Shown one piece after another: positions 13,405 to 34,849 of a stretch of 41,029 nt of DNA (its first letter is position 1; each line of letters opens with the position of its first letter). The position numbers and the translations under genes were made by a program. The notes under the pieces were generated by a model. That model had not been told where the DNA came from and did not search any database. It worked only from the letters and a program-made list of their open reading frames with translations. The DNA comes from a virus, in the IMG/VR virus record IMGVR_UViG_3300031707_000052, positions 1 through 41,029 of that record. One strand, written 5' to 3'.

Positions 13405-13469
13405 CTGCGCCCAGATGCTTTCATGCAGCCTGCACGGGCCAGTCGGCTGCATCGGAAGAGAGGGCGCAG
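13405..13469 (+). promoter_or_regulatory. Long hairpin covering the portal ribosome site
   Basis: Three stacked stems: CTGCGCCC (13405-13412) with GGGCGCAG (13462-13469); CTTTC (13418-13422) with GGAAG (13454-13458, one G-T wobble); ATGCAGCC (13423-13430) with GGCTGCAT (13445-13452); loop 13431-13444. The ribosome site AGAGAGGG (13457-13464) of the portal GTG at 13474 lies in the 3' arm, so folding would hide it. A translational control element is inferred. Confidence 0.55.
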
Positions 13470-13473
13470 CGAT

Positions 13474-20445: not shown

Positions 20446-20718
20446 ATGGCCGAGACTACGATCCCGCTGGTGATCCGGGACGGGGCGACGCATGACGATC
20501 TTGCGCTTGCCGTCATCGACTTAGTGCGGAAGGTCGCCGGCCCGGATTCGGCGGTGATCATCGCGTTTGCGACTCCGCCGAAGCCGGACGGGACTGGCGA
20601 CTGGCGCGTCCGCTGGGACGGGGACATTTCGACGGTGCTGCGGTTGACGCGGACGACGAGTGACCTTGTATTGGACAAGTTCTTGCCTGTCATGAAGCAG
20701 AACCAGAAGGAGGGTTGA
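20446..20718 (+). CDS. Small hypothetical protein
   Basis: A 90-aa protein from ATG 20446, with GGAGCGCAGG upstream. Mixed alpha-beta sequence (IPLVIRDGATHDDLALAVIDL). Its stop codon lies two bases before the fibre ATG and AAGGAGGG inside its last codons is the fibre ribosome site. The function is unknown. Confidence 0.5.
   Translation: MAETTIPLVIRDGATHDDLALAVIDLVRKVAGPDSAVIIAFATPPKPDGTGDWRVRWDGDISTVLRLTRTTSDLVLDKFLPVMKQNQKEG
20644..20672 (+). promoter_or_regulatory. Possible sigma-70-like promoter for the fibre gene
   Basis: TTGACG at 20644-20649 and TGTATT at 20667-20672 are separated by 17 bp, and the predicted start point is about 40 bp before the fibre ATG. The match to TTGACA is 5 of 6 and to TATAAT 4 of 6. 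It is inside the coding region of the 90-aa gene and may be chance. Confidence 0.3.
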
Positions 20719-20720
20719 CG

Positions 20721-22502
20721 ATGTTCAAGCGCATCACCGCCGTTTCCGCCGGGCTCGTCTTCGCCGTCGCCGTCTTGCTCGGCGCGAACGCGGTCAACCG
20801 CTACGTCGGGTACGGGGGCGCGGCTCCTCGGCAGCACATCGTTGCCGACACCGATGCGGCGAAACCGGCTGGCTCGCAGATCGGCGACACCGTTTTCTGC
20901 AAGGACACGTTCTACACCTACACCTGGACCGGAACCGCGTGGGCCGCGCCCGGCATGGCGCGGGCGGACCTGCAACTCGTCCTGACCAACACCACGACGA
21001 TCACGAGCAACCCCTACGGGGGCACGCGAGCCTACATCAACGGCGAGATCGTCACGATCACCGGGTTGACGTGCCTGACGTCCGCGAACGTCATCAGCGC
21101 GACGGGCACCGACTCCGGCGCGGCGGCTGCGGCGAGTACGCATTACTACGTCTACCGGAGCAATTCATCCGCCTCCTACGCGCCGGGTACCGTGAAGAAT
21201 TGCGCGACTGCGCCGAGTACCTATCTCGGCAACCTCTACCTCGCCGCGACCGGCAACGGGGCGAACTGGCTGTACGTCGGCGACTGCTATACGAACGCGG
21301 CGACGCAGTATACCTACGTGGTCAGTCACTACAACTATTGCGACCCCGCCACAACCGATCTTACTCTTCGCCCGACCACCTCTTCCACGACAGGAGTAAT
21401 TTACAAGGGTGCCGACCGATTCATCCATAATTTCGCTCTCGCTGGCACAGACGGCTTCAATACTTTCGTCGGCGTTAATGCCGGCAATTTCACGATGACC
21501 GGCTCGACGGGTACTCAGGGCTCCTACAATTCCGTGGGGGCGGGGGTTAGTGCCCTCCAATCGAACACGACCGGCTACTTCAACTCCGTGGGGGCGGGGG
21601 TGTATGCCCTCCGCGCGAACACGACCGGCTACAACAATTCCGTGGGGGCGGGGGTTAGTGCCCTCTACGCGAACACGACCGGCTACAACAATTCCGTGGG
21701 GGCGGGGGTGTATGCCCTCTACTCGAACACGACCGGCGCCAACAATTCCGTGGGGGCGGGGGCTAGTGCCCTCTGCTTGAACACGACCGGCTACAACAAT
21801 TCCGTGGGGGCGGGGTATGAGGCCCTCTACGCGAACACGACCGGCGCCAACAATTCCGTGGGGGCGGGGTATCGGGCCCTCTACGCGCTGCGCCCCACCA
21901 GTCTCGCCGTCTCCGCTATCGCTGATTACTCCGGGACTGTCGCGGGAACGGTCAAGGCCACCTCCGTCGGCCACGGTCTACCCGCAGGGCCCACGGCCGG
22001 GATCGGGGTCTACGGAACCACCACCTATAACGGGACCTACACAATAACTTATATCGACGCGGATAATTTTTACTTCACCCACGCATGGGGCGCGACTTCT
22101 ACGGGTTGGTGGGGGAAGGACGCTGAAGGCAAAAACAATACGGCGACGGGCTACCAGGCTGGGCGGACTCTTGTAACTGGCGATTCCTGCACATTCCTCG
22201 GCTATAGCGCGGGCTATCATGCCAGCCAACTCGCATCAGCATCCAATTCGATGGCCCTGGGAAATGGCGCGTACACCACGCAGTCGAACCAGATCGCTTA
22301 CGGAAACGCTGCCATTACGCTCAACTCGTTTAACGGCGTCATGGCCTGCGCCACGGACACGCTCCGGTTGACGACGGCGAAGACCCCGGCGACGTCGGGT
22401 GCGGCGGGGACGCAGGGCGATATATGCTGGGATGCGAATTACGTCTACGTGTGCATCGCCACGAACTCGTGGAAGCGCGCGGCAATCGCCGCCGGGTGGT
22501 AA
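20721..22502 (+). CDS. Repeat-bearing fibre protein with an N-terminal signal sequence
   Basis: A 593-aa protein. Residues 1-25 (MFKRITAVSAGLVFAVAVLL) are a basic N-terminus followed by a hydrophobic stretch, a Sec-type signal peptide or membrane anchor. After residue 140 the module shared with the upstream protein appears. Residues about 270-390 hold seven 18-aa repeats built on NSVGAG-ALxxNTTGxN, the hexapeptide-like repeats found in tail fibres and trimeric adhesins. The C-terminus carries further NTATGYQAGRTL and NSMALGNGAYTT units, then a beta-rich end similar to those preceding intramolecular-chaperone domains, but no chaperone domain is visible. Signal peptides are unusual on phage fibres, so it may be secreted or surface-anchored instead. 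AAGGAGGG precedes the start. Confidence 0.75.
   Translation: MFKRITAVSAGLVFAVAVLLGANAVNRYVGYGGAAPRQHIVADTDAAKPAGSQIGDTVFCKDTFYTYTWTGTAWAAPGMARADLQLVLTNTTTITSNPYGGTRAYINGEIVTITGLTCLTSANVISATGTDSGAAAAASTHYYVYRSNSSASYAPGTVKNCATAPSTYLGNLYLAATGNGANWLYVGDCYTNAATQYTYVVSHYNYCDPATTDLTLRPTTSSTTGVIYKGADRFIHNFALAGTDGFNTFVGVNAGNFTMTGSTGTQGSYNSVGAGVSALQSNTTGYFNSVGAGVYALRANTTGYNNSVGAGVSALYANTTGYNNSVGAGVYALYSNTTGANNSVGAGASALCLNTTGYNNSVGAGYEALYANTTGANNSVGAGYRALYALRPTSLAVSAIADYSGTVAGTVKATSVGHGLPAGPTAGIGVYGTTTYNGTYTITYIDADNFYFTHAWGATSTGWWGKDAEGKNNTATGYQAGRTLVTGDSCTFLGYSAGYHASQLASASNSMALGNGAYTTQSNQIAYGNAAITLNSFNGVMACATDTLRLTTAKTPATSGAAGTQGDICWDANYVYVCIATNSWKRAAIAAGW
21531..21887 (+). repeat. Seven 54-bp repeats in the fibre gene
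   Basis: The string TCCGTGGGGGCGGG starts at 21531 and recurs every 54 bp (21585, 21639, 21693, 21747, 21801, 21855). Each unit encodes 18 residues of the form NSVGAGVxALxxNTTGxN. Most changes between units fall at the same few codons (Val-Ser, Val-Tyr, Ala-Ser, Tyr-Glu, Tyr-Arg after the GAG; the codons before Asn; Tyr or Ala after TTG). Confidence 0.95.
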
Positions 22503-22520
22503 CGAAATAGGAGCGGTACC

Positions 22521-22943
22521 ATGCGCCTTTTCCTCCTCTCCCTCTCGCTCCTGTGCTGCTCATGCGCCCTCACGCGCACCGTCTCCGAGCGCGACGTGAG
22601 CAAAGTTCTCGGACGGGAAGTCATCGTCGTTTACGGGACGAACGACGGATGGGAAACGCGGAATTCCGACACGCTCTACGTGTATCTGGAGCGGGGATGG
22701 CAATGGGAGCCGCACTACTACACGTGGGGCGCAATCGCCACCCTCGCGGCCAACGCCGCAGACCGCGATGCCGGAGAGGTGATGGACGCCATCGAGATCC
22801 CGAGGCGATTCATGTACGTGCCGGGGGACAGCAAGATCGACGCGACGCGGGTGCAGGCGAGGCTGGAAGGTGCGCTGCCGAGCCATTTTACGTTCCAGAA
22901 TACGAGCCCTGGGTGGCCGACTTTCTATTGGCGAGGTAGGTGA
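22521..22943 (+). CDS. Phage lipoprotein
   Basis: A 140-aa protein with a short basic start and a hydrophobic run LFLLSLSLLCCSCALTR that contains lipobox-like sequences (LCCS/LCCSC), so a Cys near residues 12-15 would be lipid-modified after signal peptidase II cleavage. The mature part has a WETRNSDTLYVYLERGWQWEP stretch and a HYYTWG loop, with no recognised domain. Surface lipoproteins made by phages often block receptors and stop superinfection or help lysis, but there is no direct evidence here. Its stop TGA is shared with the head morphogenesis start region (GGTGATG). It closes the accessory block. Confidence 0.7.
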   Translation: MRLFLLSLSLLCCSCALTRTVSERDVSKVLGREVIVVYGTNDGWETRNSDTLYVYLERGWQWEPHYYTWGAIATLAANAADRDAGEVMDAIEIPRRFMYVPGDSKIDATRVQARLEGALPSHFTFQNTSPGWPTFYWRGR

Positions 22944-25132
22944 TGTCGACGCTCGACCCGGCTGAAAAAGATTTCCGCGCGCTCCTCTCCGACTCGGGGA
23001 CGGTCGCCGCGTTGGGCGACATCTACGAGCGGGCGGCGCGCCGCATCGTCGCCGAGCTCGCCGCCGGCGTCTCCCGCCCGGGCGCGGCCCGCGCGCGCGA
23101 GTTGCTCGCCCGGATCGACGAGATCCTCGGCGATCTCGATCCGCGGAAGCAGTCATCCGTCCGGAAGTGGATCGTCGAGAACGCCCGGAAGGCGTACGTG
23201 CTGGGCGACCAGGCGGCGACGAAGCAGATCCGGGACGTGCTAGCCCGGCTGCCCGACAAGGGGCGGGCGGAGTTCGGAGAGGTCGATACGTCGTGGACCG
23301 TCATCAACAACAACGCCATGCGCGGGATCGCCGCGGCGATGTCCGCGACCCTCGGCCAGGCGAAGGCGCAGATGTCCTCCTTCCTGACGACCACGATCCG
23401 GCAGACGCAGGTTGCCGGCAATCTCTCGGAGGCGATCCTCCAGACGACGACGGGCGGCCTCCTCCGCGGCGTCGCCGGCCAGTCGATCAAGGACGACATC
23501 GCGTCCATCCTGCTCGAAGGGAAGGTTGATCCGGCGGTGAGGCAGCGGCTTTCCGAAGTCGGCTACCGGGGCGACATGTTCGACAAGTTCGAGCGGATCG
23601 CGCGCGGGGAACTGATCACGGTGGGCGGCAAGACCTTCAACGTCCGGACGTACGCGGACCTGGTGGCACGGACGCAGATGAAGGAGCTACACAAGACCGC
23701 GACGCTCGTCCGGGGCCAGCGGAACGGCTTCAACCACGTCCGGATGTCGTGGCACCCGATGGAGGAGCCCGACGAGTGCACTCCGTTCGCCGGGAAGATC
23801 TTCTACTTCGGGCCGCTGCCGCAGGACCCGCTGGGGTTCCCCCGGTTCAACATGCTGCCGAGCAACGGGGACTTCCACCCCAACTGTGCTCCTGCTGGCA
23901 CGATGATCACGACGAGTCGGGGGCGTGTGCCCATCGAGCAGATCGCAGAGGGGATGAAGGTCCTGACGCACGAGGGGCGATTCCGGCGCGTGACGGGGAC
24001 GATGCGGCGTCTCTTCGCGGGGATGCTCTATGGCGTCAACGGTGTGCGTCTAAGCGGCGGGCACCCCGTCCTGACGAATCGCGGGTGGATCTCAGCGCGC
24101 CAGATTGGCGTAGGCGAGAAGTCGTCCCCTGAACTCCCCGAGGCGTTGCGGGTTGGGATGGCTCGGGAACGGAATGCGGAATACCCGCCAGCCTTGCAGC
24201 GCAAGAGCCGAGTCGCGCTTGGCGTCGCTGGTTCGCTTCGAGGGTTTGGCGTGGAAAGAGGAATCAACCTCGATGCAGACCTGCGTGGATGGGAAGGCAA
24301 AATCAGCGACGTACCTCCCGATGGCGCGCATGAACTCGAAATGGAAACCGGCCTCGGTGAGTATGGCAATGGCGATCTTCTCGGGGCCGCTCGGCTTCTT
24401 CCGGAACGCGAGCGCGTAGCCGGCGCTCATCTTCTCTCGGATGGTTGGATCGAGGGACGGGTTATCCTGGATCATGCGCCGTCGATTGCGTGCGAAGGCC
24501 CGGGAAGTCTTATCTGTAATGCTTCCGGGCGCGCCTCCGCCACGGGGACGTGTCTTGATTCCGAACCGCTTGAAATGATCCAGCATCGTATGGCCGGAGC
24601 GGGACTTGTAGCCAATTTCTACGGCCAACTGAGAGAGCGTGCGGCCGGTCTCGTAACGTCGGCGCAGGAAGTCGCCAAGGGGCTCGCCGATTCGATCCGA
24701 GATTTTCGCGATGATCTCGCGGCGCCGCGCTTCCTCTCGGCACTTCCAGGAGCAGACCTTGACGTGAACGGGGCGGACGTGGCAGATGGGGCACATTGTT
24801 TTCATAACGTTATGGTAGCAGTAGCGGACGGCTACGTCAAGCCCCGAATCTCTCGGCGCTGGTTCGCGGGCTGGCTCTACAATTTCTCTGTTGCCGAGGA
24901 CGAGAGTTACATCGCCAACGGCGTGGTCGTTCACAATTGCGTCCACCGCTTCTCCCTCTGGTCGACGGCCGGGGTGGGCGGGGCGCAGATCGCGCGCGAG
25001 CTCGCGTGGGTGCAGCGAATCCCCGCGTCCTTCTTCGGCAAGACGGGCGCCGAGGTCCGGAAGCTGATGAAGGCAATGGGCCCGGCGGCGGTGGCGGAGA
25101 TCTCGAAGCCCTCGATGGAGGCGGCGGCGTGA
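22943..25132 (+). CDS. Head morphogenesis protein (Mu gpF-like) interrupted by an intein
   Basis: The 729-aa precursor contains a phage head morphogenesis protein split by a 351-aa intein. The N-extein (314 aa) is mainly helical and contains the Mu F-type core: NVRTYADLVARTQMKELH, then HVRMSWHPMEEPDECTPFAGK and GDFHPN. The C-extein (64 aa) begins CVHRF. The spliced sequence HPNCVHR restores the HPNC motif that is typical of the family, and total mature length is 378 aa. Such proteins are minor head components that act near the portal during assembly. GAGG at 22933 sits six bases before ATG 22943; an adjacent GTG at 22940 is an alternative. The intein is described separately. The 238 codons in the middle of the intein lie back-to-back with a separate gene on the opposite strand. 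Confidence 0.9.
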   Translation: MSTLDPAEKDFRALLSDSGTVAALGDIYERAARRIVAELAAGVSRPGAARARELLARIDEILGDLDPRKQSSVRKWIVENARKAYVLGDQAATKQIRDVLARLPDKGRAEFGEVDTSWTVINNNAMRGIAAAMSATLGQAKAQMSSFLTTTIRQTQVAGNLSEAILQTTTGGLLRGVAGQSIKDDIASILLEGKVDPAVRQRLSEVGYRGDMFDKFERIARGELITVGGKTFNVRTYADLVARTQMKELHKTATLVRGQRNGFNHVRMSWHPMEEPDECTPFAGKIFYFGPLPQDPLGFPRFNMLPSNGDFHPNCAPAGTMITTSRGRVPIEQIAEGMKVLTHEGRFRRVTGTMRRLFAGMLYGVNGVRLSGGHPVLTNRGWISARQIGVGEKSSPELPEALRVGMARERNAEYPPALQRKSRVALGVAGSLRGFGVERGINLDADLRGWEGKISDVPPDGAHELEMETGLGEYGNGDLLGAARLLPERERVAGAHLLSDGWIEGRVILDHAPSIACEGPGSLICNASGRASATGTCLDSEPLEMIQHRMAGAGLVANFYGQLRERAAGLVTSAQEVAKGLADSIRDFRDDLAAPRFLSALPGADLDVNGADVADGAHCFHNVMVAVADGYVKPRISRRWFAGWLYNFSVAEDESYIANGVVVHNCVHRFSLWSTAGVGGAQIARELAWVQRIPASFFGKTGAEVRKLMKAMGPAAVAEISKPSMEAAA
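24092..24805 (-). CDS. Vsr/DUF559-like homing endonuclease, antisense inside the intein
   Basis: A complete 237-aa gene on the minus strand, from ATG at 24805-24803 to TGA at 24094-24092. Residues 5-22 form a C4 zinc finger (C5, C8, C18, C22). Residues about 56-82 form a helix-turn-helix (TLSQLAVEIGYKSRSGHTML). The nuclease domain occupies residues 139-215 and looks like the PD-(D/E)xK-type fold of Vsr/DUF559 proteins: E142, D168 in VADF, E179 and D181 in IEVD, H185, and a KRD with D198, then GWRVFRIP. Zinc finger plus HTH plus Vsr-like nuclease is the layout of free-standing homing endonucleases, including those found near split inteins in phages (EDxHD family, Dassa and colleagues 2009). 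Codons are in exact register with the intein codons on the other strand, so TTA, CTA and TCA are absent. It carries its own promoter and no ribosome site. Confidence 0.85.
   Translation of the reverse strand: MKTMCPICHVRPVHVKVCSWKCREEARRREIIAKISDRIGEPLGDFLRRRYETGRTLSQLAVEIGYKSRSGHTMLDHFKRFGIKTRPRGGGAPGSITDKTSRAFARNRRRMIQDNPSLDPTIREKMSAGYALAFRKKPSGPEKIAIAILTEAGFHFEFMRAIGRYVADFAFPSTQVCIEVDSSFHAKPSKRTSDAKRDSALALQGWRVFRIPFPSHPNPQRLGEFRGRLLAYANLAR
24812..24840 (-). promoter_or_regulatory. Sigma-70-like promoter for the antisense endonuclease
   Basis: On the minus strand TTGACG (24840-24835), a 17-bp spacer, and TACCAT (24817-24812). The match is 5 of 6 to TTGACA and 4 of 6 to TATAAT, with optimal spacing. 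The predicted start point, about seven bases after the -10, falls on the ATG at 24805, implying a leaderless mRNA and explaining the lack of a ribosome site. It is encoded within the intein. Confidence 0.6.
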
Positions 25133-25281
25133 ACGCCGAGGCGAAGCCAACGTCTATCGCCTGTTACGAGGTCGCGGCCCTGATGCGCGGCGCGACCCGG
25201 GCGCGGATCAATCACGGAGGCAAGCAGTACGAGCTGAGGATCACGGACCGGGGAGGTCTGATCCTCGTGCGAATCGCGTAA
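25129..25281 (+). CDS. HemP-like small protein
   Basis: A 50-aa protein starting at GTG 25129, overlapping the head morphogenesis stop (GTGA). The sequence follows the pattern of the hemin-uptake HemP family: a short helix (CYEVAALMRGATRARI), then INHGGKQYELRITDRGGLIL, with the paired strands and a GGLIL end in place of the usual GKLILTK. HemP proteins are short and appear in iron-related operons, but phage versions occur without such genes and their role is unknown. No other iron gene is near. The gene is followed directly by a strong terminator. Confidence 0.6.
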   Translation: MNAEAKPTSIACYEVAALMRGATRARINHGGKQYELRITDRGGLILVRIA

Positions 25282-25293
25282 GTCCCGTAAGCC

Positions 25294-25345
25294 AAAAGCC
25301 AAGGGAGTCTCCGGAGCGAAAGCCCCGGGGCCCTTGGCTTTTTTT
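25294..25345 (+). terminator. Strong Rho-independent terminator
   Basis: AAAAGCCAAGGG (25294-25305) pairs perfectly with CCCTTGGCTTTT (25331-25342), 12 bp, and is followed by a T-run to 25345. The 25-nt loop can form an inner CCGG/CCGG pair. It lies only 8 bases before the ribosome site of the next gene, with no room for a promoter between them. Confidence 0.9.
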
Positions 25346-25363
25346 ATTCCCGTGAGGTGGACC

Positions 25364-26965
25364 GTGATCAAGAGCGAAGGCGGGAAGTGGGTCCTGTACA
25401 CGCAGGACGGGAAGAAGGTGCTCGGGCGCTTCGCCTCCGAGGCCGAGGCGAAGAAGCGCGAGGCGCAGGTCAAGTGGTTCAAGGGCGCGGACCATTCCGC
25501 CGAGCCCGCCGACGCCGAGGAGCTCGCCGCCGGCCACACCGAGATACAGACCCTCGTTTTCGCGAAGGCGAAGTTCCCCTCGGCCGACGAGGCGCTCGCC
25601 TGGTGCAAGTCCCACGACTTCTCCGCCGGGACGAGCCGGGACACGGAGGACTCCTTCCGCATCCGCCAGAAGCCGCCCGAGGATTTCGTCTCCGGCTCCT
25701 TCCGCACGATCCGCATCGCCGAGGGGATCTCCGCCGTCATCGGGCACCCGAAGAAGCGTGACCACTCCGTTTTCCTGCTGGGGCCGAAGTCGGACTTCAT
25801 CGCCAAGGGCGCCGGGCGTTTCGTGAAGGATATCGCCAGCGTGGGGAGGTGGATCCACCCCGACACGGGGCAAGAGATCGAGTTCACGTTGGATCGGCTG
25901 AATCGCCTGGCCGCCGAATCGAACCGGTTCCGGCAGAACGAAAACGAGATCCCCTTTCCCGACGGCCACTCCTTCTCCGTCATGAAAAGCCTCGGCGATT
26001 GGCCGGGACCCTTCGTCGTCGAGGCCGGCCGACTCTGGGGAGTCGTCGCCCCGAAGGGCAAGGAGGTCCTCGACCGCGTCGCCGACGGCCGCATCAAGCG
26101 CGTCTCGGCGCGGATCCAGTTCGACCACGTCGACACGAAGGGCAACACCTACCCCGAAGTTTTGACGCACGTCTGCGCAACGGATTACCCCGTCTTGACG
26201 GGTCAACGGGACTTCCAGTCGCTCTCGGTGGTCGAGGGTGATGCGGGTCCCTGTTCGGTTTTGCCGCTGATCCCCGCTGAAGAGGCCGGGGGCGCGGAGA
26301 AAGGAGCCGGGATGGATCGCAAGGCGATGTTGGCGTCCCTCGCCGCCCTGAGCCTCTCGCCGGAGGTTCTCGGGCTCACGGAGGACGCGCAGGAGAAGGA
26401 CATCTTCGAGGCGCTCGGGAAGCGGACGCCGCCGCTCGACGAGAAGGCCACGAAGAAGGTCGTCGACGAGGCCCTCGCGCTCGTCGGGATCGAGCTCAAG
26501 GCCCGCAACCTCAAGATCGAGGCCGGGAAGGTCGTCGAGCTCGCCGCCAAGCCGCCCGCCGAGGAGACCGAGGAGACGAAGGCGCTCCGCGCTCGGGTCG
26601 CCGAGATGAACGCCACGCTCGGCCGCCAGCGGATCGAGAAGGCGAAGCAGGTCGTCGCCCTCGCGGTCAAGGACGGCCGGCTGCCGCCCGCGGTCGAGAA
26701 GGCCGCCCTCCAGCTCCTCTCCGTCGAGGGGAAGGCGAAGGCGATCGAGCTGTCCGCGGACGGGAAGGACCTGAAGGACGCGGACGTCGAGACCGCGCCG
26801 CTCGTCGAGCAGATCCTCGCGTCGCTCCCCCGCTGGGACGCGAAGCACCTGACCCAGCTCTCGGCCGAGCAGAAGACGAAGGCCGAGGAGCTGTCCTCGC
26901 GCGGGGCCAAGGCCATGCGCAAGGCGCAGGGCCGCGCGGAGCCCAAGAAGGAGGAGAAGGCGTAA
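25364..26965 (+). CDS. Mu gpI-like prohead protease/scaffold
   Basis: A 533-aa protein starting at GTG 25364, with GAGGTGG just upstream. The N-terminal 30 residues (KWVLYTQDGKKVLGRFASEA) form a small beta hairpin common on such proteins. Residues about 100-290 are the Mu I-type protease domain: FDHVDTKGNTYPE, GRIKRVSARIQF and VLTHVCATDYPVLTG strands, and a SLSVV end. The second half (residues about 330-533) is a helical Lys/Glu/Ala-rich scaffold region (LRARVAEMNATLGRQRIEKA). These proteins assemble the prohead and are then cut. The catalytic residues cannot be assigned with confidence by eye. It precedes decoration and capsid genes. Confidence 0.8.
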   Translation: MIKSEGGKWVLYTQDGKKVLGRFASEAEAKKREAQVKWFKGADHSAEPADAEELAAGHTEIQTLVFAKAKFPSADEALAWCKSHDFSAGTSRDTEDSFRIRQKPPEDFVSGSFRTIRIAEGISAVIGHPKKRDHSVFLLGPKSDFIAKGAGRFVKDIASVGRWIHPDTGQEIEFTLDRLNRLAAESNRFRQNENEIPFPDGHSFSVMKSLGDWPGPFVVEAGRLWGVVAPKGKEVLDRVADGRIKRVSARIQFDHVDTKGNTYPEVLTHVCATDYPVLTGQRDFQSLSVVEGDAGPCSVLPLIPAEEAGGAEKGAGMDRKAMLASLAALSLSPEVLGLTEDAQEKDIFEALGKRTPPLDEKATKKVVDEALALVGIELKARNLKIEAGKVVELAAKPPAEETEETKALRARVAEMNATLGRQRIEKAKQVVALAVKDGRLPPAVEKAALQLLSVEGKAKAIELSADGKDLKDADVETAPLVEQILASLPRWDAKHLTQLSAEQKTKAEELSSRGAKAMRKAQGRAEPKKEEKA

Positions 26966-27040
26966 CGGCGGGATGGACGGGGCCGGGCCGCGACTGTGAC
27001 GGCCGCCCGCATCGAAGGAACGATCGAAGGAGGACACGGA

Positions 27041-27493
27041 ATGATCCCCGAACTGGGAGCCAACGGGATGCCGGGCATCACCGACGAGCGCGTGCAGGAG
27101 AGCCACGAGTTCCTCCGCGACGTCAACCACGTCGCGATCAAGGGCATCGTGATCGCGGCCGGGACCGAGGACCCCGACCACGTCGACAAGGAGTTCGTCC
27201 TCCAGCCGGGACTGGTGCTCGTCCGCATCGAGACCGGCCCGCACGCCGGGAAGTTCACCAACCCCGACAACGCGTACGCCGCGCCGTACGACGACGACAT
27301 CGTCGAGGCCGTCATCCTCGACCGCTACATCAACACGATGTCGAAGACCGGCGCCCCCGAGGACAAGCAGGCGGCCGGCGTGTGGCACGGGCGGGTCGAC
27401 CGCGACCAGCTCTTCTACGGCGCGTCCGACCCCAGCCGCATCGAGGCCCTGGAGGCCGCGATGAAGCTGGTCCTCGTCGAGGAGGACGTCTAG
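27041..27493 (+). CDS. Capsid decoration protein
   Basis: A 150-aa protein with GAAGGAGGACAC just before ATG 27041. It contains a beta-tulip-like layout (VNHVAIKGIVIAAGTED, FVLQPGLVLVRIETG) resembling lambda gpD-type head stabilisers, with a central Gly-rich turn and a helical end (RIEALEAAMKLVLVEE). It would bind the capsid at threefold sites and stabilise the full head. Position between protease and capsid genes fits this role. Confidence 0.7.
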   Translation: MIPELGANGMPGITDERVQESHEFLRDVNHVAIKGIVIAAGTEDPDHVDKEFVLQPGLVLVRIETGPHAGKFTNPDNAYAAPYDDDIVEAVILDRYINTMSKTGAPEDKQAAGVWHGRVDRDQLFYGASDPSRIEALEAAMKLVLVEEDV

Positions 27494-27574
27494 CCGTCCG
27501 GTGGAAGCCGCGAGCCGCCCCCGGCCGGTAGAAGTGGGCAGGCGTGATGGAGGCTGTGATTCGGAGGAGACGAG

Positions 27575-28579
27575 ATGGACAACGACCTTCTGAAGCTGGA
27601 GTTCTTCGACGGCATGATCGCCGAGCGCAAGACGCCGGCGAGCCTGCTGCTCACCTCCCGCAACATCCTTCCCGTCGTCGAGGACGTCGGGCAGACGGTG
27701 GCATGGGACATCGAGACGGCGGAGATGGACGTGCAGGGTTTCCAGGGGTTGGCGGCCTCCGCCGGCGTCCGGAAACTGGGGAAGATCAAGCACCGCACGG
27801 CCAGCCTCGCCCGGACGTTCATCTCCAAACGGATTCCCGGAAACGCCCTCATCGACCTCCGCGCCCCCGGCTCGATGACCCGCGAGGCGCTCGCCGAGGC
27901 AAAGGTCGCCCGGGAGACGAACAGCCTGCTCTCCTTCCTGGACCGCCAGGATGAGTACATGCGCGCGCGCGCCCTCCAGGGCGTGATCGCCATGGTGATC
28001 GACGGCGTCGCCTACGACGTCGACTACGGCTTCCTCGGCGGCGACCATGACATCACCCCCGCGCCGCGCTGGAGCGACACCGGGGCCGACATCGAGACCG
28101 ACATCGCCCTCGCCGTCAAGGCGATCGCCCAGGACAGCGGCAGGGATGCCGTCTACGCCCTGTGCGGCTCGGACGTCATCGCCGCGATCATGAAGAACGA
28201 TCGCGTCACCGAGTACTTCGCCAAGACCGCGGCCGGCACGGCCTACATGCAGACCCGGAGCATGGGGCAGTTCCAGGGCCTCGAGTGGCTCGTCGACGAC
28301 CAGGTCTACAAGCCCGACGGCGGCAGCATGACGCCCTTTGTCGATCCGAAGGATGTCATCATCTTCCCCGCCCCGGACGCCGACTGGGGCGAGTTCCGCG
28401 TCGGTTCGGATGCCATCCCCACCGACGATCGCATCTCCCCTCCGATCGAGAAGGTCGGCCGGTACGTCTACGCCAACTGCCAGATCAACCCGGCGAGCAT
28501 CGAACTGTTCGCCGGCTGTGTGCGGCTCCCGATCATCCGGAACGTCGGGGCCATCGCCGTGATCCACGCCCTGCCGTAG
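27575..28579 (+). CDS. Major capsid protein (lambda gpE-like, HK97 fold)
   Basis: A 334-aa protein with a strong ribosome site (GGAGGAG). It has the signatures of the lambda E family: TASLARTFISKRIPGNALI and LRAPGSMTREALAEAKVARE (residues 68-113 in part), a helix LSFLDRQDEYMRARALQG, then VDYGFLGG and the C-terminal P-domain strand block (DPKDVIIFPAPDADWGEF). The 334 residues match the usual length of about 340. This protein forms the icosahedral shell. It is followed by a very stable hairpin in the 100-bp gap before the next gene. Confidence 0.9.
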   Translation: MDNDLLKLEFFDGMIAERKTPASLLLTSRNILPVVEDVGQTVAWDIETAEMDVQGFQGLAASAGVRKLGKIKHRTASLARTFISKRIPGNALIDLRAPGSMTREALAEAKVARETNSLLSFLDRQDEYMRARALQGVIAMVIDGVAYDVDYGFLGGDHDITPAPRWSDTGADIETDIALAVKAIAQDSGRDAVYALCGSDVIAAIMKNDRVTEYFAKTAAGTAYMQTRSMGQFQGLEWLVDDQVYKPDGGSMTPFVDPKDVIIFPAPDADWGEFRVGSDAIPTDDRISPPIEKVGRYVYANCQINPASIELFAGCVRLPIIRNVGAIAVIHALP

Positions 28580-28621
28580 TGAACGGCTGAGGGCAGATCC
28601 TACTCCGTGTGATGCACGGAA

Positions 28622-28667
28622 GGGGGGCGGGGACCGGACCCGCAAGGGACCGTGAGCCCCGCCCCCC
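28622..28667 (+). other. Very stable GC hairpin after the capsid gene
   Basis: GGGGGGCGGGG (28622-28632) pairs with CCCCGCCCCCC (28657-28667) for 11 bp, with an inner GGACCC-GCAA-GGGACC stem (one mismatch). There is no T-run. It lies between the capsid and connector genes, four bases before the GGAGGAG ribosome site, so it may stabilise the capsid mRNA 3' end or limit expression of the next genes. Confidence 0.7.
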
Positions 28668-28682
28668 GTGGAGGAGTGACCG

Positions 28683-29192
28683 ATGGACCTGGACGCGACG
28701 GTCTCCGGAGTCGCCGCCAATTCGTACATCGACCTCTACGAGGCCGGAGACCTCATGGAGGCGTTCGAGCAGATCGACGCGTGGGACGAGCTCGACCAGG
28801 AGGAGCAGGAGCGGCTGCTCTACCGGGGCACCCGCCTCCTCGACGCCTACAAGTCCTGGGGTCTCCGGGCAATCGCCGGCCAGGCGCTCGCGTTCCCCCG
28901 CAAGCGCGACGGGGGGCTTGTCCCCCGGGATGTCAAGCTCGCGCTCATGGAATGCGTGGACTTCGAGCTGGAGGGGAGCGGGTCGGGGCTCAAGCGTCAG
29001 CAGGCCGAGGGCGTGACCTCGGTGTCCGTCCTCGGGAAGTCCATGACGTTCGCCGCGGACTCGTCCCGCCTCCCCGCGGGCGCGCGCGTGCTGCTCGACG
29101 AGCTGTACCTCTCCGGCCAGGAGCCCATCGTCCTCAACCGGCGCGAGCGCAGGCATCCGCGCCGATGCAAGGATGAGAGCCTCTTCGGGTGA
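28683..29192 (+). CDS. Head-tail adaptor protein
   Basis: A 169-aa protein with GGAGGAG upstream. It has the pattern of the helical head-completion or adaptor family (also called DnaT-like): VSGVAANSYIDLYEAGD..., DELDQEEQERLLYRGTRLLDAY, then WGLRAIAGQALAFPRKRDGG (about residues 59-78), and a C-terminal tail that runs through SGQEPIVLN. These proteins form a ring under the portal that receives the tail. It comes directly after the capsid gene, the usual place. Confidence 0.8.
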   Translation: MDLDATVSGVAANSYIDLYEAGDLMEAFEQIDAWDELDQEEQERLLYRGTRLLDAYKSWGLRAIAGQALAFPRKRDGGLVPRDVKLALMECVDFELEGSGSGLKRQQAEGVTSVSVLGKSMTFAADSSRLPAGARVLLDELYLSGQEPIVLNRRERRHPRRCKDESLFG

Positions 29193-29196
29193 CCGC

Positions 29197-29571
29197 ATGT
29201 TCGGCGTCGCGAACGAAAAGCTCCTGATGCACAAGCCGGCCTCGCGCGACGTCGCGAATGAGGTCGCCTACGAGATCGTCACGGCCGAGGACGGGGACAT
29301 CGCCTACCTGCGTGTCGCGATGACCCGGAAGGTCCGCACCATCAAGACCCGGGACGGCAAGGAGATCGCCTGCGACGGGTCGATCGCGTTCGACGCGAAG
29401 ACCGAGGCGGGCCGGCTCCTGGAGGTCGGGTGGCTCGTCTCCGATGCGCACGGGAAGGTCTACGAAGTCGTCACCCGCTCGGATGACTCAACCTTCGGCG
29501 AGGAGGACGCGACCTGCGACCTCCAGTTGACCCGGAAAAAGGTGGACCTCGGTCTGGATGAGCCCTCGTGA
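29197..29571 (+). CDS. Head closure or head-tail joining protein
   Basis: A 124-aa protein. ATG 29197 was chosen because the conserved-looking sequence begins there (MFGVANEKLLMHKPASRDV), while the in-frame ATG at 29173 lies within the preceding gene. The chain is largely beta with a central KTRDGKEIACDG turn, a typical head-closure fold. Its stop overlaps the next GTG (GTGA). The function is inferred from gene order. Confidence 0.6.
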   Translation: MFGVANEKLLMHKPASRDVANEVAYEIVTAEDGDIAYLRVAMTRKVRTIKTRDGKEIACDGSIAFDAKTEAGRLLEVGWLVSDAHGKVYEVVTRSDDSTFGEEDATCDLQLTRKKVDLGLDEPS

Positions 29572-30137
29572 GCAAGGACGATGTTTTCTCCATCGATATC
29601 GCCGCGTTCGACAAGTCGATCCGGCAGGTCCGCAAGAATCTGAAGATGCTGGAGTGGGCGTTCAAGCTCGCGGTCTACCAGGCGATCAAGGAATACGCCG
29701 AGAAGTTCATCGCCAAGGCGCAGAATCGCGCGCCCGCGGGCGAAGGGAACCTCCGGGGCAGCGCGACGGTTGTCCCGACGACCGACGCGACAGGCGAGAC
29801 GGTGGGCGTGGTGGCCGGCTTCAACATCGTCTATGCCCACATGCGGGACGTCGGCGGAACGATCCGGCCGGTACGCGCGAAGGCCCTGTTCATCCCGCTG
29901 CGGAAGGGCGCGCGGCCGGGCGACAAGTCGCTCAAGTGGGGCGTGGACTTCGTGCTCGCGCAGGTCGTCGTCCAGAAGGGCAACCTGTATTTCTCGATCA
30001 CCGTCGACGAGGCAAAGGTGGAGTACCCCTTGTGGGTCTCCCTGAGATTCCGGGAGATCACCAAGGGGGAGCGCGGCGAGGTTCTCTCGAAGACGCCGCC
30101 GGCAGCGTGGTCCGAGTCATCGACACCGGGAGCGTGA
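29568..30137 (+). CDS. HK97 gp10-like tail completion protein
   Basis: A 189-aa protein starting at GTG overlapping the preceding stop. Residues about 45-75 (AEKFIAKAQNRAPAGEGNLRGSATV) match the HK97 gp10 signature of helix, RAPxxxGxLRxS, then a beta sheet with NIVYAHMRDVGGTIRP. These proteins sit at the head-tail neck or the tail end and control tube joining. The C-terminus is basic and longer than average for the family. Confidence 0.75.
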   Translation: MSKDDVFSIDIAAFDKSIRQVRKNLKMLEWAFKLAVYQAIKEYAEKFIAKAQNRAPAGEGNLRGSATVVPTTDATGETVGVVAGFNIVYAHMRDVGGTIRPVRAKALFIPLRKGARPGDKSLKWGVDFVLAQVVVQKGNLYFSITVDEAKVEYPLWVSLRFREITKGERGEVLSKTPPAAWSESSTPGA

Positions 30138-30141
30138 TGCC

Positions 30142-30645
30142 GTGGAACAGCGGATTCTACAGGCCGGATTCGTGGAGGCGCTCTCCGGCGCGATCGCCGA
30201 TCGCTTCCGCTTCTCCGTCGCCCGGCTCGGCGCCGACCTCCCGCTGCGCACGGGCGTCCACGTCTTCGCCGAGGACATGCCGGAGGTGGAGGAGATCGCC
30301 AGGACCGCGGGCCCGGCCTACGGGGACGAGCATCCCGCGCTTGCGCTCTACGACCAGGGCGGCCTCGGGAATTCCATCTCCTCGTCCCACGGCGGCCGGC
30401 TGGAATGGACGATCCGCTTCGTCCTGCGCCGCGGCACGAATACCGCGCGCGTCGACGCCCTGCTCGACGAGTTCTATGCGTGGGCGCAGAACCGCCTCCG
30501 CGGCGTGCGGCTCACGTCCGGTCACAAGATCGTCTCGGTAGTTCCGTCGTCGAAGCCGGTAGGCGTGGTCATCGAGGGCGACCGTCACGCTTTCGCTTCG
30601 GCGACTCTCCGTTTCCTCGGCGTCGCCCTTCCTGTTGGAGCCTGA
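30142..30645 (+). CDS. Tail terminator-like protein
   Basis: A 167-aa protein from GTG 30142, with GGGAG nine bases upstream. The mixed alpha-beta layout (a leading helix, strands LRTGVHVFAEDM, GGRLEWTIRFVL, then ALLDEFYAWAQNRLRG) fits the small tail-terminator ring proteins that cap the tail tube before the tube gene. The call is based on size and position, with only general similarity. Confidence 0.55.
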   Translation: MEQRILQAGFVEALSGAIADRFRFSVARLGADLPLRTGVHVFAEDMPEVEEIARTAGPAYGDEHPALALYDQGGLGNSISSSHGGRLEWTIRFVLRRGTNTARVDALLDEFYAWAQNRLRGVRLTSGHKIVSVVPSSKPVGVVIEGDRHAFASATLRFLGVALPVGA

Positions 30646-30648
30646 GCC

Positions 30649-31458
30649 ATGGTCGAGGAAGCGAACGTCCCCGCTGCAGACCCGAGGAATCACCAGACAG
30701 CGGCGAAGCTGTCCGTCTGGTTCCGGCCCTACGGGTCGACCGACGACAAGGACTGGATCGAGTTCGGGAACATCATCGATCCCGACATGACGCCCACGGT
30801 GGAGAAGCTGGAGCACTCCTCCAACCGCCGCGGCCTCCGGACGGTCGACCGGACGGCCATCATCTCGCGGAAGCTGGAGCTCAACTTCTCGATCGACGAG
30901 ATCAACCGCCAGAACCTCCGCTTCGCCTTCCAGGGCGAAGACAAGGGGGCCGCCTCGGTGGATGCGCACGACTCCGACAACTTCCCGAACCCCGGCGCCG
31001 GGAACGCCATCGACCTCGGCCAGACCGGGCTCAAGGCCGGCTCCGTCGTCGTCCGCAGCGCGATCGACGAGGACGACGTCGTCTACGTCGAGGGCTACGA
31101 CTACACCGTCGACGAGTCCACCGGGATCGTCACGATCGAGTACGGCGGGGACCTGGCCGACGAGTCCGCCTACGGCGTCGAGGAAGTCCACATCACTTGG
31201 GCGAAGACGCTCGGCGCCCGGAAGATGGCCGTCTTCTCCGAGGAGATCATCGGCGAGGTCAAGCTCCAGAACCTCCCGCCCGGCGGCCACCAGGTCATCT
31301 TCACCCTGCCCAACGCCACCGTCTCGAACAACGGCGCGCTCGCGTTCGGCGACGGCTCGAAGTGGCAGGAGATGCCCCTCACCGTCCTCGCGCTCGAGGA
31401 CAACGCGGGCGAGCTCTGCTACCTCAACGAGATCAACAAGGCCGACCGCCTCGACTAG
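30649..31458 (+). CDS. Major tail tube protein
   Basis: A 269-aa protein. It contains beta-strand blocks: SVWFRPYGSTDDKDWIEFGN, DPDMTPTVEKLEHSSN, TAIISRKLELNFSIDEIN, and KMAVFSEEIIGEVKLQNLP, typical of tail tube proteins. A 60-residue insert around residues 100-180 has an acidic, Ig-like loop (VVYVEGYDYTVDESTGIVTI) similar to add-on domains on siphophage tubes. It is followed by the tail chaperone genes, which makes the assignment robust. Confidence 0.85.
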   Translation: MVEEANVPAADPRNHQTAAKLSVWFRPYGSTDDKDWIEFGNIIDPDMTPTVEKLEHSSNRRGLRTVDRTAIISRKLELNFSIDEINRQNLRFAFQGEDKGAASVDAHDSDNFPNPGAGNAIDLGQTGLKAGSVVVRSAIDEDDVVYVEGYDYTVDESTGIVTIEYGGDLADESAYGVEEVHITWAKTLGARKMAVFSEEIIGEVKLQNLPPGGHQVIFTLPNATVSNNGALAFGDGSKWQEMPLTVLALEDNAGELCYLNEINKADRLD

Positions 31459-31500
31459 GGCGGCGGCGATCCGGGGTCCTGAGCCGAAAGGAGACGATCC

Positions 31501-31965
31501 GTGGTGGACGAGGCCGCGAAGGTTCCGGAGATGGGCGCGATCCCGCCGGCGATGGCGAAGGGGACGATCCTCGTCCAGCTCGCCAAGCCCGTGGAAGGCA
31601 AGGCGACGGTGCTCGTCGAGAAGTGGTCCTTCACGAAGGCGATCGCCGTGCTTGCCATGATGGGACGCTCCTTCGACACCCTCCCCCGGGCGGTGATCGA
31701 CGAGTTCGCCAAGGGCGACTGGCGGGCTCACGTCTCGGATCTGGCGGCGGCGCTCGGCGAGCGGCTCCTCGATGTCGTCGAGGAGTCCGTCCGCAAGGAG
31801 GACCGCGGCATCATCCGTTCCGCGCTGCTCGACTCGGAGGACGGCCTCGGCATCCTCGAGGCCGTCTTCGAGTGCAACCTCACGGAGCGATTCGTGGGAA
31901 AAGCGGTGGCCCTCGTGTCGAAGTCCCTCGCAAAGTTCGCCGCGGCGGTGCGGAGTACACGATAG
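31501..31965 (+). CDS. Tail assembly chaperone G
   Basis: A 154-aa protein from GTG 31501, with AAAGGAG at seven bases. It is mostly helical (MAKGTILVQLAKPVEGK, then KWSFTKAIAVLAMMGRSFD), the general layout of lambda G-like chaperones that coat the tape measure. The stop TAG at 31963-31965 is bypassed on a fraction of ribosomes by a -1 shift at 31896-31902, giving the fused product described next. Confidence 0.75.
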   Translation: MVDEAAKVPEMGAIPPAMAKGTILVQLAKPVEGKATVLVEKWSFTKAIAVLAMMGRSFDTLPRAVIDEFAKGDWRAHVSDLAAALGERLLDVVEESVRKEDRGIIRSALLDSEDGLGILEAVFECNLTERFVGKAVALVSKSLAKFAAAVRSTR

Positions 31966-32348
31966 AGTCCGCCGTCGGTGCCATCTGCGCGGCCGGGCTC
32001 GCGACGGTGGCCGAGGTGCTCGACTACGAGGGCCGCTGGAGCTTCGAGCTGATCGAGACCATGCTGCCCGTCGCCATCGAGATCGAGGCGAACCGGGTGG
32101 ATTGCATGGCGCGGGCGGTGATGGGGGGACTGGCCGGGGTGCTCACGAAGGAAGGCGCGGACATCTTCCGGAAGGACTTGGAGGACGTGCGCGCGGGCGT
32201 GCGGAAGGCGCAGAGGGCGACGCGCGGATTGCCTCCGGAGCCGGAGACGCCAGCGATCGAGCGGTTTATCGCCGGGCTGCGGAAGGTCGCGGCGACAGGT
32301 GGCGGAAAAGGTCGCGGGCGCGCGGGCGCCCGGCATGGGAGACGGTGA
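31501..32348 (+). CDS. Tail assembly chaperone GT, made by -1 frameshift
   Basis: The zero frame reads ...GTG GGA AAA GCG...; the heptamer G GGA AAA at 31896-31902 has the XXXYYYZ form in the correct phase, as in lambda (GGGAAAG). After a -1 slip reading continues SGGPRVEVPRK and stays open through YTIESAVGAICAAGLATVAE to TGA at 32346-32348. The product is 282 aa, with 134 from G and 148 from the T part, whose helices (SFELIETMLPVAIEIEANR, CMARAVMGG) are separate from G. The T region has no start codon or ribosome site of its own. G-T binds the tape measure and recruits tube protein. Frameshift efficiency cannot be told from the sequence. Confidence 0.8.
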
Positions 32349-32351
32349 GCC

Positions 32352-34115
32352 ATGGCCGGCGATCATAATGCAGGGTCGGTCTGGGTGCAGTTCAAGGGCG
32401 CGGTCTCCGGCCTGGTGAACGGCTTCAAGCAGGCGCTCGGCGGACTCGATACGTTCGAGCGGGGTGCCAACAAGTCCTTCGCCCGCATCGCCAAGTTCTC
32501 CAACAAGCTCCTTCACGTCCAGTTCGCGGCGATGAGCCTGATGCAGGCGTTCGGGTCGGAGACGTCGGGCCTCGGGCAGGCGGTCAAGTTCGCGTCCGCT
32601 GGCATCGCCACCTTTGCGATCACGGCGTCCATCCTCCCGGGGTCCGTCGGGCTCCTTATCGCCGTGCTCGCCGGCCTCGCCACCGCCTTCGCCGGCTTCC
32701 TCGCGCCCAGTGAGGAGGCGAAGGCCGCCCTGGAGCGGACGCAGAAGGTGATCAAGGCGTCGAAGGACAGCTACGGCGACCTCAACAACGACCTGCGGAA
32801 GATCGAGAACGACTTCTCCACGCGCCGCATGATCGGGACGCTTCTCGGCGAAGACCTGTCCAAGATCAAGGTCGAGGAGGCGATCGCGAAGGTCAAGCGG
32901 TTCAAGGAGACGATCGACGCGAGCCGGGGGGCCGTCGAGGAGATGGAGGCGTCGGTCAAGAAGCTCCTGGCCAATGTGCCGAAGGAACGGGCAGCGGACG
33001 CAAGTGCCAGGTCGGGTTCGTGGGGCAATTGGGGGGACGTGGCAAATAAGGCCGCCGGCATTGACACCCGAACTTCCTCGGAGAAGGCGGCGGCTGAGCT
33101 CGAAAAGAAGATCACCGCCGAGAAGGCGAAGCAGTACGAGATCGCGATGAAGGAGCTGAAGGCCGCCTTCGACGTCGTCGTCGAGCGGGTGAAGGCGGGG
33201 CTGGCGATGAAGGCGCAGGCTTCCGCGGCCCTTGCGATCGCCATGACAGCGGACGAGCGGGCGCACAGCGAGGCGGATACCGGCCGCGAGCTGGAGGCTC
33301 AGGCCGAGGCACTCCTCAAGATCCAGGAGGCGTTCGCGGCGCGGCAGAAGTCGCTCGTCGAGTTCGACCGCGCGTTGGGCGTGCAGCGTGCCCTGGAGAG
33401 CGTCAATGCGGTCCTGCTGCAGCCCGGGAAGTACCTCGTCGAGCTGCTCAACGAGGGCACGCGAATCGCGCAGGAGCAGGCGCGACAGGCCGAGATGAAC
33501 GCGTGGGCCGGGACCACCGGGCCGATGAGCGTCGAGGACCGGATGGGAATCGTGGAAGCATCGCAAGCGGCTAAGGAGAAGGCGCGGAAAAAACTAGAAG
33601 ACATGCAGGAAGATTTCAGGACGCTCGTCTCTGACCCCTTCTCTCACTCCCTCGCTGACGGCGTCCGGGACGGCATCCTCGCGGGGTCGGACGCGCTGGA
33701 GATGGTTCGGAACACGGGCGAGAACATGTTCCGCGAGTCGATCACGACGCTCGTGGAGTTCGGCCGGAAGAACCTCGCCACCGCGCTCACCGACCTCCTC
33801 GGCGCCGGCGGGGAAGTGATGGGGTCGCTGATGGCCGGCGTGATGGGGGTGGTGGGCTTTTTCATGTCGGGCCGGGGCGGGAAGAGCGGCTCGCAGTCCT
33901 GGAGCAGCGTCTCGGGCATCACCTCGACGGCCGCCAACCGAGGCATCGTCGCCGGCCCCTCGTCGGTGGCGATCGCCGCCGTGGGCGACGACCTGGCGCG
34001 CGCGTTCGCCCCCGTGGTCTCTCGCCTCGACTCCCTCATCGGGATCGGTACGGCGATCGCATCGAAGGTGGGCGGTGGCGGCGGCCTCTCGTACGCAGGG
34101 GATGTGCCCTCATGA
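32352..34115 (+). CDS. Tail tape measure protein
   Basis: A 587-aa protein, starting three bases after the GT stop. It has a tail-tip-like N-terminus (VQFKGAVSGLVNGFKQALGG), a hydrophobic segment of about 40 residues near 76-117 (FASAGIATFAITASILPGSVG), then a long helical Ala/Glu/Lys/Arg-rich part with a second hydrophobic Gly-rich region near 490-520 (GEVMGSLMAGVMGVVGFFM). These features are typical of tape measure proteins, which set tail length and help membrane passage of DNA. At 587 residues the tail is short to medium for a siphovirus (using about 0.15 nm per residue, roughly 90 nm). Confidence 0.85.
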   Translation: MAGDHNAGSVWVQFKGAVSGLVNGFKQALGGLDTFERGANKSFARIAKFSNKLLHVQFAAMSLMQAFGSETSGLGQAVKFASAGIATFAITASILPGSVGLLIAVLAGLATAFAGFLAPSEEAKAALERTQKVIKASKDSYGDLNNDLRKIENDFSTRRMIGTLLGEDLSKIKVEEAIAKVKRFKETIDASRGAVEEMEASVKKLLANVPKERAADASARSGSWGNWGDVANKAAGIDTRTSSEKAAAELEKKITAEKAKQYEIAMKELKAAFDVVVERVKAGLAMKAQASAALAIAMTADERAHSEADTGRELEAQAEALLKIQEAFAARQKSLVEFDRALGVQRALESVNAVLLQPGKYLVELLNEGTRIAQEQARQAEMNAWAGTTGPMSVEDRMGIVEASQAAKEKARKKLEDMQEDFRTLVSDPFSHSLADGVRDGILAGSDALEMVRNTGENMFRESITTLVEFGRKNLATALTDLLGAGGEVMGSLMAGVMGVVGFFMSGRGGKSGSQSWSSVSGITSTAANRGIVAGPSSVAIAAVGDDLARAFAPVVSRLDSLIGIGTAIASKVGGGGGLSYAGDVPS

Positions 34116-34849
34116 TGACCCGCGGCCTCCTCATCACCGCGACGGGCTCGCGCTACCTCGAGTACGCGCGCTGGCAGGTCCACCACCTCCGGGCGATCGG
34201 CTGGGATCACCCCATCCGCGTGATGACCGACGTCCCCGGCGCGATCATCCCCGGGGCGCTCGTCGACCGCATCTCCCCGCCCTCCGGCTGCCGGGGGCCC
34301 TGGTGGAGCCGGGGCATCCGGGTCCGGGCGTACGAGCTGAGCCCGTGGGACCTGACCCTCTGCCACGACGCCGACATGGTCCCCCGCGACATCGAGGACG
34401 TCTGGCACTTCGCGCAGAGGGGCGAATTCTGCGTCACGATCAACAAGGAGCGGCCCCGGCTGGGCGATGCCTGGTTTGCCACGGAACACTCGAAATCGTT
34501 GACCCTGGCCGAAGCTGGCGCGGATTCCACGCACTACAGTGGCGGGTGCGTCCTGTTCGCGAAATCCCCGCGCGCCGAGTCGATCTACAAGGCGTGGGCG
34601 GCCGAGTGGGACAGGGACCCGACGCAGGACGAGCCGGCGCTCGCCCGCGCCCTCGCGCGCCTGCGCGAGAAGCCCGTGGAGATCCCCATGACGTACAACT
34701 GGTCCCCCGGCGAGCATGATGGGATCGAGTCCGTCATGGAGTCCTACCGGCGCGAGCGGTGCATCCACATCTGGGCGCAAAAACCCGTGATCCTTCCGCA
34801 GGTCTACGGCGCCCTCCTGGGCGTCACCGCTGAAAGGGCGACCGCATGA
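34112..34849 (+). CDS. Glycosyltransferase-like protein in the tail operon
   Basis: A 245-aa protein whose ATG overlaps the tape measure stop. Residues 80-95 carry DLTLCHDADMVPRDIEDV, with a DAD (86-88) that fits a GT-A metal and donor site. The N-terminus (GLLITATGSRYLEYARWQVHHL) resembles those of phage glycosyltransferases that begin with a nucleotide-binding strand. Further motifs SGGCVLFAKSPRA and PMTYNWSPGEHDG are typical of this family of small transferases. Its location between tape measure and tail-tip genes suggests an acceptor on the virion, but this is inference. Confidence 0.75.
   Translation: MMTRGLLITATGSRYLEYARWQVHHLRAIGWDHPIRVMTDVPGAIIPGALVDRISPPSGCRGPWWSRGIRVRAYELSPWDLTLCHDADMVPRDIEDVWHFAQRGEFCVTINKERPRLGDAWFATEHSKSLTLAEAGADSTHYSGGCVLFAKSPRAESIYKAWAAEWDRDPTQDEPALARALARLREKPVEIPMTYNWSPGEHDGIESVMESYRRERCIHIWAQKPVILPQVYGALLGVTAERATA

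Follow-up and report, generated by a model that had tools for sequence, protein, structure and literature searches.

We have identified, in a 41,029-nucleotide stretch of phage DNA (IMG/VR virus record IMGVR_UViG_3300031707_000052, positions 1 to 41,029; hereafter the window), a MuF-type minor head protein gene that is interrupted by an intein, with a gene for an EDxHD/Vsr-like homing endonuclease lying on the opposite strand of that intein. The middle 238 codons of the intein are the exact antisense of the nuclease gene, codon against codon. Very probably this is a mobile minor-head intein whose homing endonuclease is a separate, independently expressed gene on the other strand, the intein frame being merely kept open. 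The layout and the nuclease fold were established in the window itself, whereas selection specific to each frame, avoidance of stop codons, and horizontal transfer limited to the intein were demonstrated in its relatives. Coordinates of all features are collected in Table 1.

The antisense protein is certainly more than a chance open reading frame (ORF). It matches the DUF559 family PF04480 above cut-off (expectation value, E, 2.2e-10), and its AlphaFold2 model attained a predicted local distance difference test score (pLDDT) of 85.8. When this model was used in a Foldseek search, I-Bth0305I (3r3p) came first, with a template modelling (TM) score of 0.71 by target over the catalytic domain, and Vsr (1vsr) came fifth; a profile of the nuclease family retrieved 3hrl, AbaSI, and PvuRts1I along with 3r3p. 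The protein displays the E...D...E-x-D-x3-H...D core on a Vsr-like fold that marks nucleases of the EDxHD/Vsr-like type. All six core residues (E142, D168, E179, D181, H185, and D198) are unchanged in each of the four sequences aligned, and D168, E179, D181, and H185 remain unchanged among 30 relatives. A four-cysteine N-terminus similar to that of the window nuclease is invariant in five aligned nucleases encoded on the same strand as their inteins. Single-sequence searches of IMG/VR with the nuclease of the window and with that of Vibrio phage 1.265.O returned no matches; alignments were needed.

The intein reads as a single open frame through the host gene, with Cys1, the GGHPV motif containing His60, the terminal VVVHN, and Cys+1 all in place. 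Its C-terminal region matches TIGR01443 above cut-off, and its match to Hint_2 (E 4e-6) falls slightly short of the family cut-off. A canonical homing-endonuclease intein has its endonuclease in frame with the Hint domain; here the nuclease is antisense, and the plus-strand middle of the intein gave no family match above cut-off in family profile searches. A Pfam match of this middle part to 'Reoviral Sigma1/Sigma2' (E 8e-4, below cut-off) was discarded as a composition artefact. In models built from a three-sequence alignment, which are only supportive, the plus-strand middle scored a pLDDT of 20-30 and the Hint ends up to 88. The plus-strand readout opposite the nuclease is probably an unstructured linker. 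A first-pass annotation, made from this DNA alone, had proposed an intein at 23885-24937 with its splice residues and in frame from Cys1 to Cys+1, a 237-residue minus-strand gene antisense to 238 of its codons and endowed with a C4 motif and a Vsr/DUF559 core, the absence of TTA, CTA, and TCA codons from that gene, and an intein middle devoid of homology of its own. Each of these proposals held when coordinates, register, family matches, and the predicted structures of both products were compared with it.

In Vibrio phages 1.266.O and 1.082.O, tblastn with the nuclease and tblastn with the precursor aligned to one and the same stretch, each to a different strand. Vibrio phage 1.265.O shares the antisense-nuclease intein, and two IMG/VR contigs, L010 and L017, repeat the layout. 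In the Vibrio phages and both contigs, the intein interrupts a MuF/minor-head gene at a site of the HPN/C type (the slash marks the point of insertion), and the antisense gene lies in the identical codon register. Gordonia phages Lennon, Thing3, Sitar, Nordenberg, Barsten, and SchottB have a MuF intein with an antisense protein of 196 residues that belongs to a different family; at five such loci, the gene end encoding the C-terminus of this protein extends into Hint coding sequence on the block B side. The Gordonia protein contains the motif AAYVAAFIDGEG, LAGLIDADG-like by eye, and matches phrog_5046 (E 1.2e-15), which is labelled HNH endonuclease despite the LAGLIDADG-like motif. Caulobacter and cyanobacterial phages have homologs of it whose annotations read homing or HNH endonuclease. 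The assignment rests on PHROG and tblastn; a 359-residue antisense ORF of the Gordonia phages had no Pfam match, and its trimmed form had only an irrelevant one (E 0.13). At least two unrelated nucleases therefore share the antisense architecture. None of the Vibrio and Gordonia records examined annotates the antisense gene, a warning that such nucleases escape annotation.

Long opposite-strand ORFs at four other loci showed no intein end motif and were provisionally discounted on that ground, probably being GC-rich shadows, and a scan of genome contigs produced only DUF559 genes that look free-standing. On contig L010, residues 740-791 of a minus-strand ORF (1966-4395) match the ADP-ribosyltransferase family PF03496 (E 1.1e-5) at the C-terminus of the MuF protein. 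MuF-ADP-ribosyltransferase fusions are already known.

To see which frame is selected, we compared substitutions between pairs of relatives. The nucleases of Lennon and Barsten differ at 73 nucleotides, distributed 16/6/51 over the three codon positions (P 2e-10). Across intein codons 1-37, changes in the intein frame were 13 synonymous and 6 non-synonymous (antisense, 1 and 18). In contrast, codons 76-233 gave 5 synonymous and 46 non-synonymous changes in the intein frame and 42 and 9, respectively, in the antisense nuclease frame. For the C-terminal Hint part the counts were 11 and 13 (intein frame) against 0 and 24 (antisense frame). Thus, in this pair the selected reading frame switches at the segment borders, the Hint ends following the intein frame and the middle following the nuclease frame, and a substitution pattern that changes strand at domain borders makes this a naturally occurring system in which to test ideas on antisense gene overlap. 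Similarly, 8 of the 10 differences between 1.266.O and 1.082.O are at third positions of the nuclease, with an omega of 0.18 for the nuclease and 2.8 for the intein frame, and a deeper comparison with 1.265.O showed the same trend. Selection that differs between two frames sharing the same DNA, as is characteristic of overlapping genes, was thus found, in relatives only.

The first-pass annotation would have been undermined by a decaying minus frame opposite a conserved plus frame; the Lennon/Barsten and Vibrio pairs display the opposite. Its view of a dual-coding intein stands as far as the arrangement goes, but not as a single case, since the arrangement has turned out to be a recurring class. 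The same comparisons bear on the reverse interpretation, in which the plus-strand middle is a real, fast-evolving intein domain and the antisense ORF is its shadow. The plus frame is indeed open throughout, and a tblastn alignment of the precursor runs across the middle to the Vibrio phages. Part of that similarity, however, is the catalytic motif read in antisense (..INLD.. opposite IEVDGRGH), and the middle substitutions preserve the nuclease rather than the plus-strand protein. With homology and a confident fold both belonging to the minus frame, and neither to the plus frame, we regard this interpretation as extremely improbable.

Because the codons of the two genes face each other exactly, stops in the intein frame can come only from TTA, CTA, or TCA codons of the nuclease, and the window nuclease contains none of the three. 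Three AT-rich members with the same layout as the window were equally open. For the nuclease of 1.266.O, 13.8 intein-strand stops are expected from its own codon usage and none was seen (P 1.7e-8); the corresponding expectation for 1.265.O is 14.4, again with none seen (P 5.7e-9). With codon usage taken from a short contig stretch, 10.7 stops are expected for L017, where none occurred either (P 2e-6).

Evidence for mobility came from pairs whose inteins are far more alike than the surrounding head genes. Barsten and SchottB show zero differences over nucleotides 2376-3205, which correspond to the intein, whereas their flanks are about 15% different on both sides. The inteins of 1.266.O and 1.082.O differ by about 1.4%, against 14.5% (160/1107) for the MuF alleles that contain them, and the change is abrupt at the 3' intein end. 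About 21 V. breoganii phages, their MuF 90-97% identical, are without the intein and display the empty site HPN/CRST. Movement into empty alleles independent of the flanks, by which a mobile intein is recognised, was therefore found in the relatives.

As a separate observation, diverged alleles are combined into mosaics in the minor-head genes of V. breoganii phages, and 1.082.O and 1.266.O hold the same intein in different minor-head mosaics. Some free-standing phage homing nucleases exclude competing phages. The antisense nuclease might likewise act in some such other role while the intein spreads by ordinary phage recombination; free-standing EDxHD/DUF559 nucleases in other phages and the mosaic head genes would both fit. 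Nevertheless, ordinary recombination does not predict transfer tracts that match the intein ends between exteins diverged on both sides, and every occurrence of the antisense nuclease is inside an intein at the same codons. We therefore consider this explanation unlikely, and retain nuclease-driven mobility of the intein.

The Vibrio inteins and those of both IMG/VR contigs appear, judged by their sequences, to be Ala1 inteins. Apparent starts of this kind at the MuF site are HPN/ACLKG (locus L002, 2585-3607), HWN/ACARG (L004), HFQ/AICEG (L010), and HFN/AVASG (L017), whereas the window intein begins with Cys. The empty allele HPN/CRST is the expected product of HPN-[ACLKG...VLVHN]-CRST splicing, so the Vibrio inteins would start with Ala. 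One might take these starts, with L017 devoid of Cys1, as signs that the intein no longer splices and that the minor-head gene around it has lost its function or been superseded. Against this, Ala1 inteins of the KlbA type are able to splice, excision of the Vibrio intein would return the exact protein of the intein-free relatives, the splice motifs and Cys+1 are retained in all members, and the N-terminal Hint part of the Gordonia inteins has changed mostly synonymously when read in the intein frame (13 vs 6, above). Loss of splicing is accordingly very unlikely in our judgement.

Independent expression of the nuclease is suggested by signals in the intein. The putative promoter TTGACG-17-TACCAT is the sole antisense-strand promoter-like match in window positions 22000-41029, and since its -10 element ends 6 nucleotides before the ATG, the nuclease mRNA may be leaderless. 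In the window, 1.265.O, L010, and L017 alike, the best antisense-strand promoter-like site is directly upstream of the nuclease start: TTGAAA-16-TATACT with GGAGG in 1.265.O, TTGACA-17-TATAAT (12/12 consensus) with AGGAG in L010, and TTGTAA-17-TACAAT with an AGAGG-like site in L017. A strong Shine-Dalgarno match (5/6) is present in 1.266.O, 1.265.O, L010, and L017. Both promoter and Shine-Dalgarno calls are consensus matches, not measured activity.

Several observations count against an independently expressed nuclease that drives a splicing, mobile intein. No Shine-Dalgarno site precedes the nuclease start of the window, no promoter above threshold was found in 1.266.O despite its AGGAG, and the Gordonia phages gave no sigma-70 match. 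The intein start of L017 is without Cys, and there is none nearby either. The low confidence of the intein middle depends on an alignment of just three sequences. No close relative of the window was present in the collections searched; selection and mobility were shown in relatives that are about 30% identical or, in the case of Gordonia, non-homologous. Finally, from the phage's own codon usage only 2.1 antisense stops are expected in the GC-rich window (P(0)=0.11), so that its open frame alone is not significant and the case rests on the relatives.

This last figure would also suit an inert passenger, that is, a nuclease gene inserted opposite a small intein whose frame has stayed open by GC-rich chance, with no nuclease-driven mobility. 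Indeed, the window has further long shadow ORFs, among them a 1162-residue antisense ORF at 25241-28729 (minus strand) that faces the head genes and is probably a GC-rich shadow, a warning that an antisense frame easily stays open in this genome. Chance openness does not explain, however, why the AT-rich members stay open against 11-14 expected stops or why the arrangement recurs at one site with two nuclease families. Horizontal transfer limited to the intein and purifying selection on the nuclease likewise argue against a passenger, which we hold to be hardly probable.

We thus favour a mobile intein with an antisense homing endonuclease, and envisage its cycle as follows. The nuclease gene lies opposite the intein, codon facing codon, at the position customary for an intein endonuclease, and would be expressed independently from a promoter buried in the C-terminal coding sequence of the intein. 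In a doubly infected cell, the nuclease would cut the intein-free head gene at the HPN/C codons. Repair would then copy the intein together with the antisense nuclease gene into the cut allele, a step whose sequence signature is visible in the relatives, and protein splicing, as the intact splicing motifs suggest, would restore the head protein. If the relatives are a guide, the nuclease frame would be selected for its amino acids and the intein frame only for freedom from stops, by way of a nuclease that avoids TTA, CTA, and TCA. Different selection on the two strands is kept up in several phage lineages, and the system suggests a way for a homing nuclease to be expressed without depending on the late structural gene that surrounds it.

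A sister class was found at 60 distinct phage loci, where EDxHD nucleases of a related subfamily lie inside unbroken inteins of helicase, SNF2-like, and clamp-loader genes, on the same strand and always in the +1 frame. Per locus, 6-33 stops are expected in the intein frame, and none was seen. Changes in 15 pairs fell on nuclease codon positions in the proportions 599/469/1073 and were almost all non-synonymous in the intein frame. Two further loci (L114 and L116) apparently have an EDxHD nuclease in the intein frame itself, so that one nuclease family exists in both canonical and overprinted form. In the nuclease tree the +1 class groups together (93/80), and the antisense class does not resolve as a group. 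The data lean towards a widespread, previously unrecognised class of phage mobile inteins with an out-of-frame, overprinted nuclease, placed either antisense, codon against codon, at the MuF HPN/C site, where two or more unrelated nuclease families occur, or in the +1 frame of helicase and clamp-loader inteins. In such a class the intein frame would be open for splicing only, nuclease expression would be freed from translation of the precursor, and a ready route would lead to split inteins.

The 41-kb record carries a head module with terminase, portal, minor head, and major head protein genes. A virion structural protein (phrog_23837) encoded at 20715-22502 (plus strand) contains a series of NSVGAG.ALxxNTTGxN repeats.

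Table 1. Features of the window (positions refer to the 41,029-nucleotide stretch).
Feature	Position	Strand	Basis or remark
Terminase large subunit gene	11524-13158		Head module
Portal gene	13423-15027		Head module
MuF-type minor head protein gene, intein-interrupted, 730-residue precursor	22940..25132	+	phrog_4611, E 3.5e-20, residues 25-317
N-extein, ends ...GDFHPN	22940..23884	+	HPN/C junction equals empty site of intein-less Vibrio phages
Intein, 351 codons, Cys1 to Asn351 (VVVHN), then Cys+1	23885..24937	+	Aligned with five other MuF-site inteins
Hint N-terminal part, blocks A and B (CAPAGTMITT ... GGHPVLTNRGW), clear of nuclease gene	23885..24091	+	pLDDT 77-88, residues 1-40
EDxHD/Vsr-like (DUF559) homing endonuclease gene, 237 codons and TGA	24092..24805	-	PF04480, AlphaFold2, Foldseek
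Nuclease catalytic core, residues 142-210 (E142, D168, E179, D181, H185, D198)	24176..24382	-	
C4 zinc-finger-like motif of nuclease (C5, C8, C18, C22)	24740..24793	-	
Hint C-terminal part (WLYNFSVAEDESYIANGVVVHN), also houses antisense promoter-like site	24806..24937	+	TIGR01443
Sigma-70-like promoter TTGACG-17-TACCAT, TG before -10	24812..24840	-	Ends 6 nucleotides before nuclease ATG
C-extein, begins at Cys+1 (CVHRF...)	24938..25129	+	
Major head protein gene	27575-28579		Head module

Inteins are taught as in-frame mosaics of splicing and endonuclease domains; here a nuclease strand is set against the obligatorily open strand of a splicing protein. Intein nucleases are reviewed as in-frame fusions (PMC3943268). 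The window intein shares with the canonical PI-SceI type a Hint domain interrupted at the usual place, insertion at a conserved codon, and movement with its nuclease, but differs in that the nuclease is a free protein encoded on the opposite strand and the intein frame overlying it is without a recognisable domain. Of the cases in the literature covered, the closest is an actively homing HNH nuclease encoded out of frame on the same strand of an insertion that lacks an intein splicing domain (PMC11855218). This ShiLan type resembles the window in hiding a nuclease in another frame of an insertion while the host frame stays open; it is nonetheless a same-strand, HNH system devoid of a splicing domain, whereas the window has a splicing domain, and hence an intein, with an antisense EDxHD nuclease. 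That paper cites Gosselin et al. (bioRxiv 2025.01.02.630785), on actinobacteriophage inteins with a 'non-canonical architecture', and Gorbalenya (1998), 'Non-canonical inteins', in connection with overlapping frames in actinobacteriophages, and from this citation the preprint may already cover the Gordonia MuF intein. The literature searched, whose scope did not extend to Dassa et al. (2009), Gorbalenya (1998), or the Gosselin preprint, describes no antisense nuclease gene in an intein.

The best structural match of the antisense protein, as noted, was I-Bth0305I. This enzyme, with which the EDxHD homing endonucleases were founded as a family, belongs to a group I intron, which, unlike the window, encodes it on the sense strand. 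Also close are the 'fractured genes' that Dassa and colleagues reportedly described in 2009, in which split inteins are accompanied by stand-alone nuclease genes of the Vsr-like (EDxHD) type. Like the window intein, these combine a nuclease of the same superfamily with a free nuclease gene between the Hint halves, mostly in phages. In contrast to them, the window intein is unsplit: the minor head gene is one uninterrupted 730-residue ORF rather than two, a single frame spans both Hint halves, and the nuclease is antisense. The arrangement may offer an intermediate through which the origin of split inteins can be tested.

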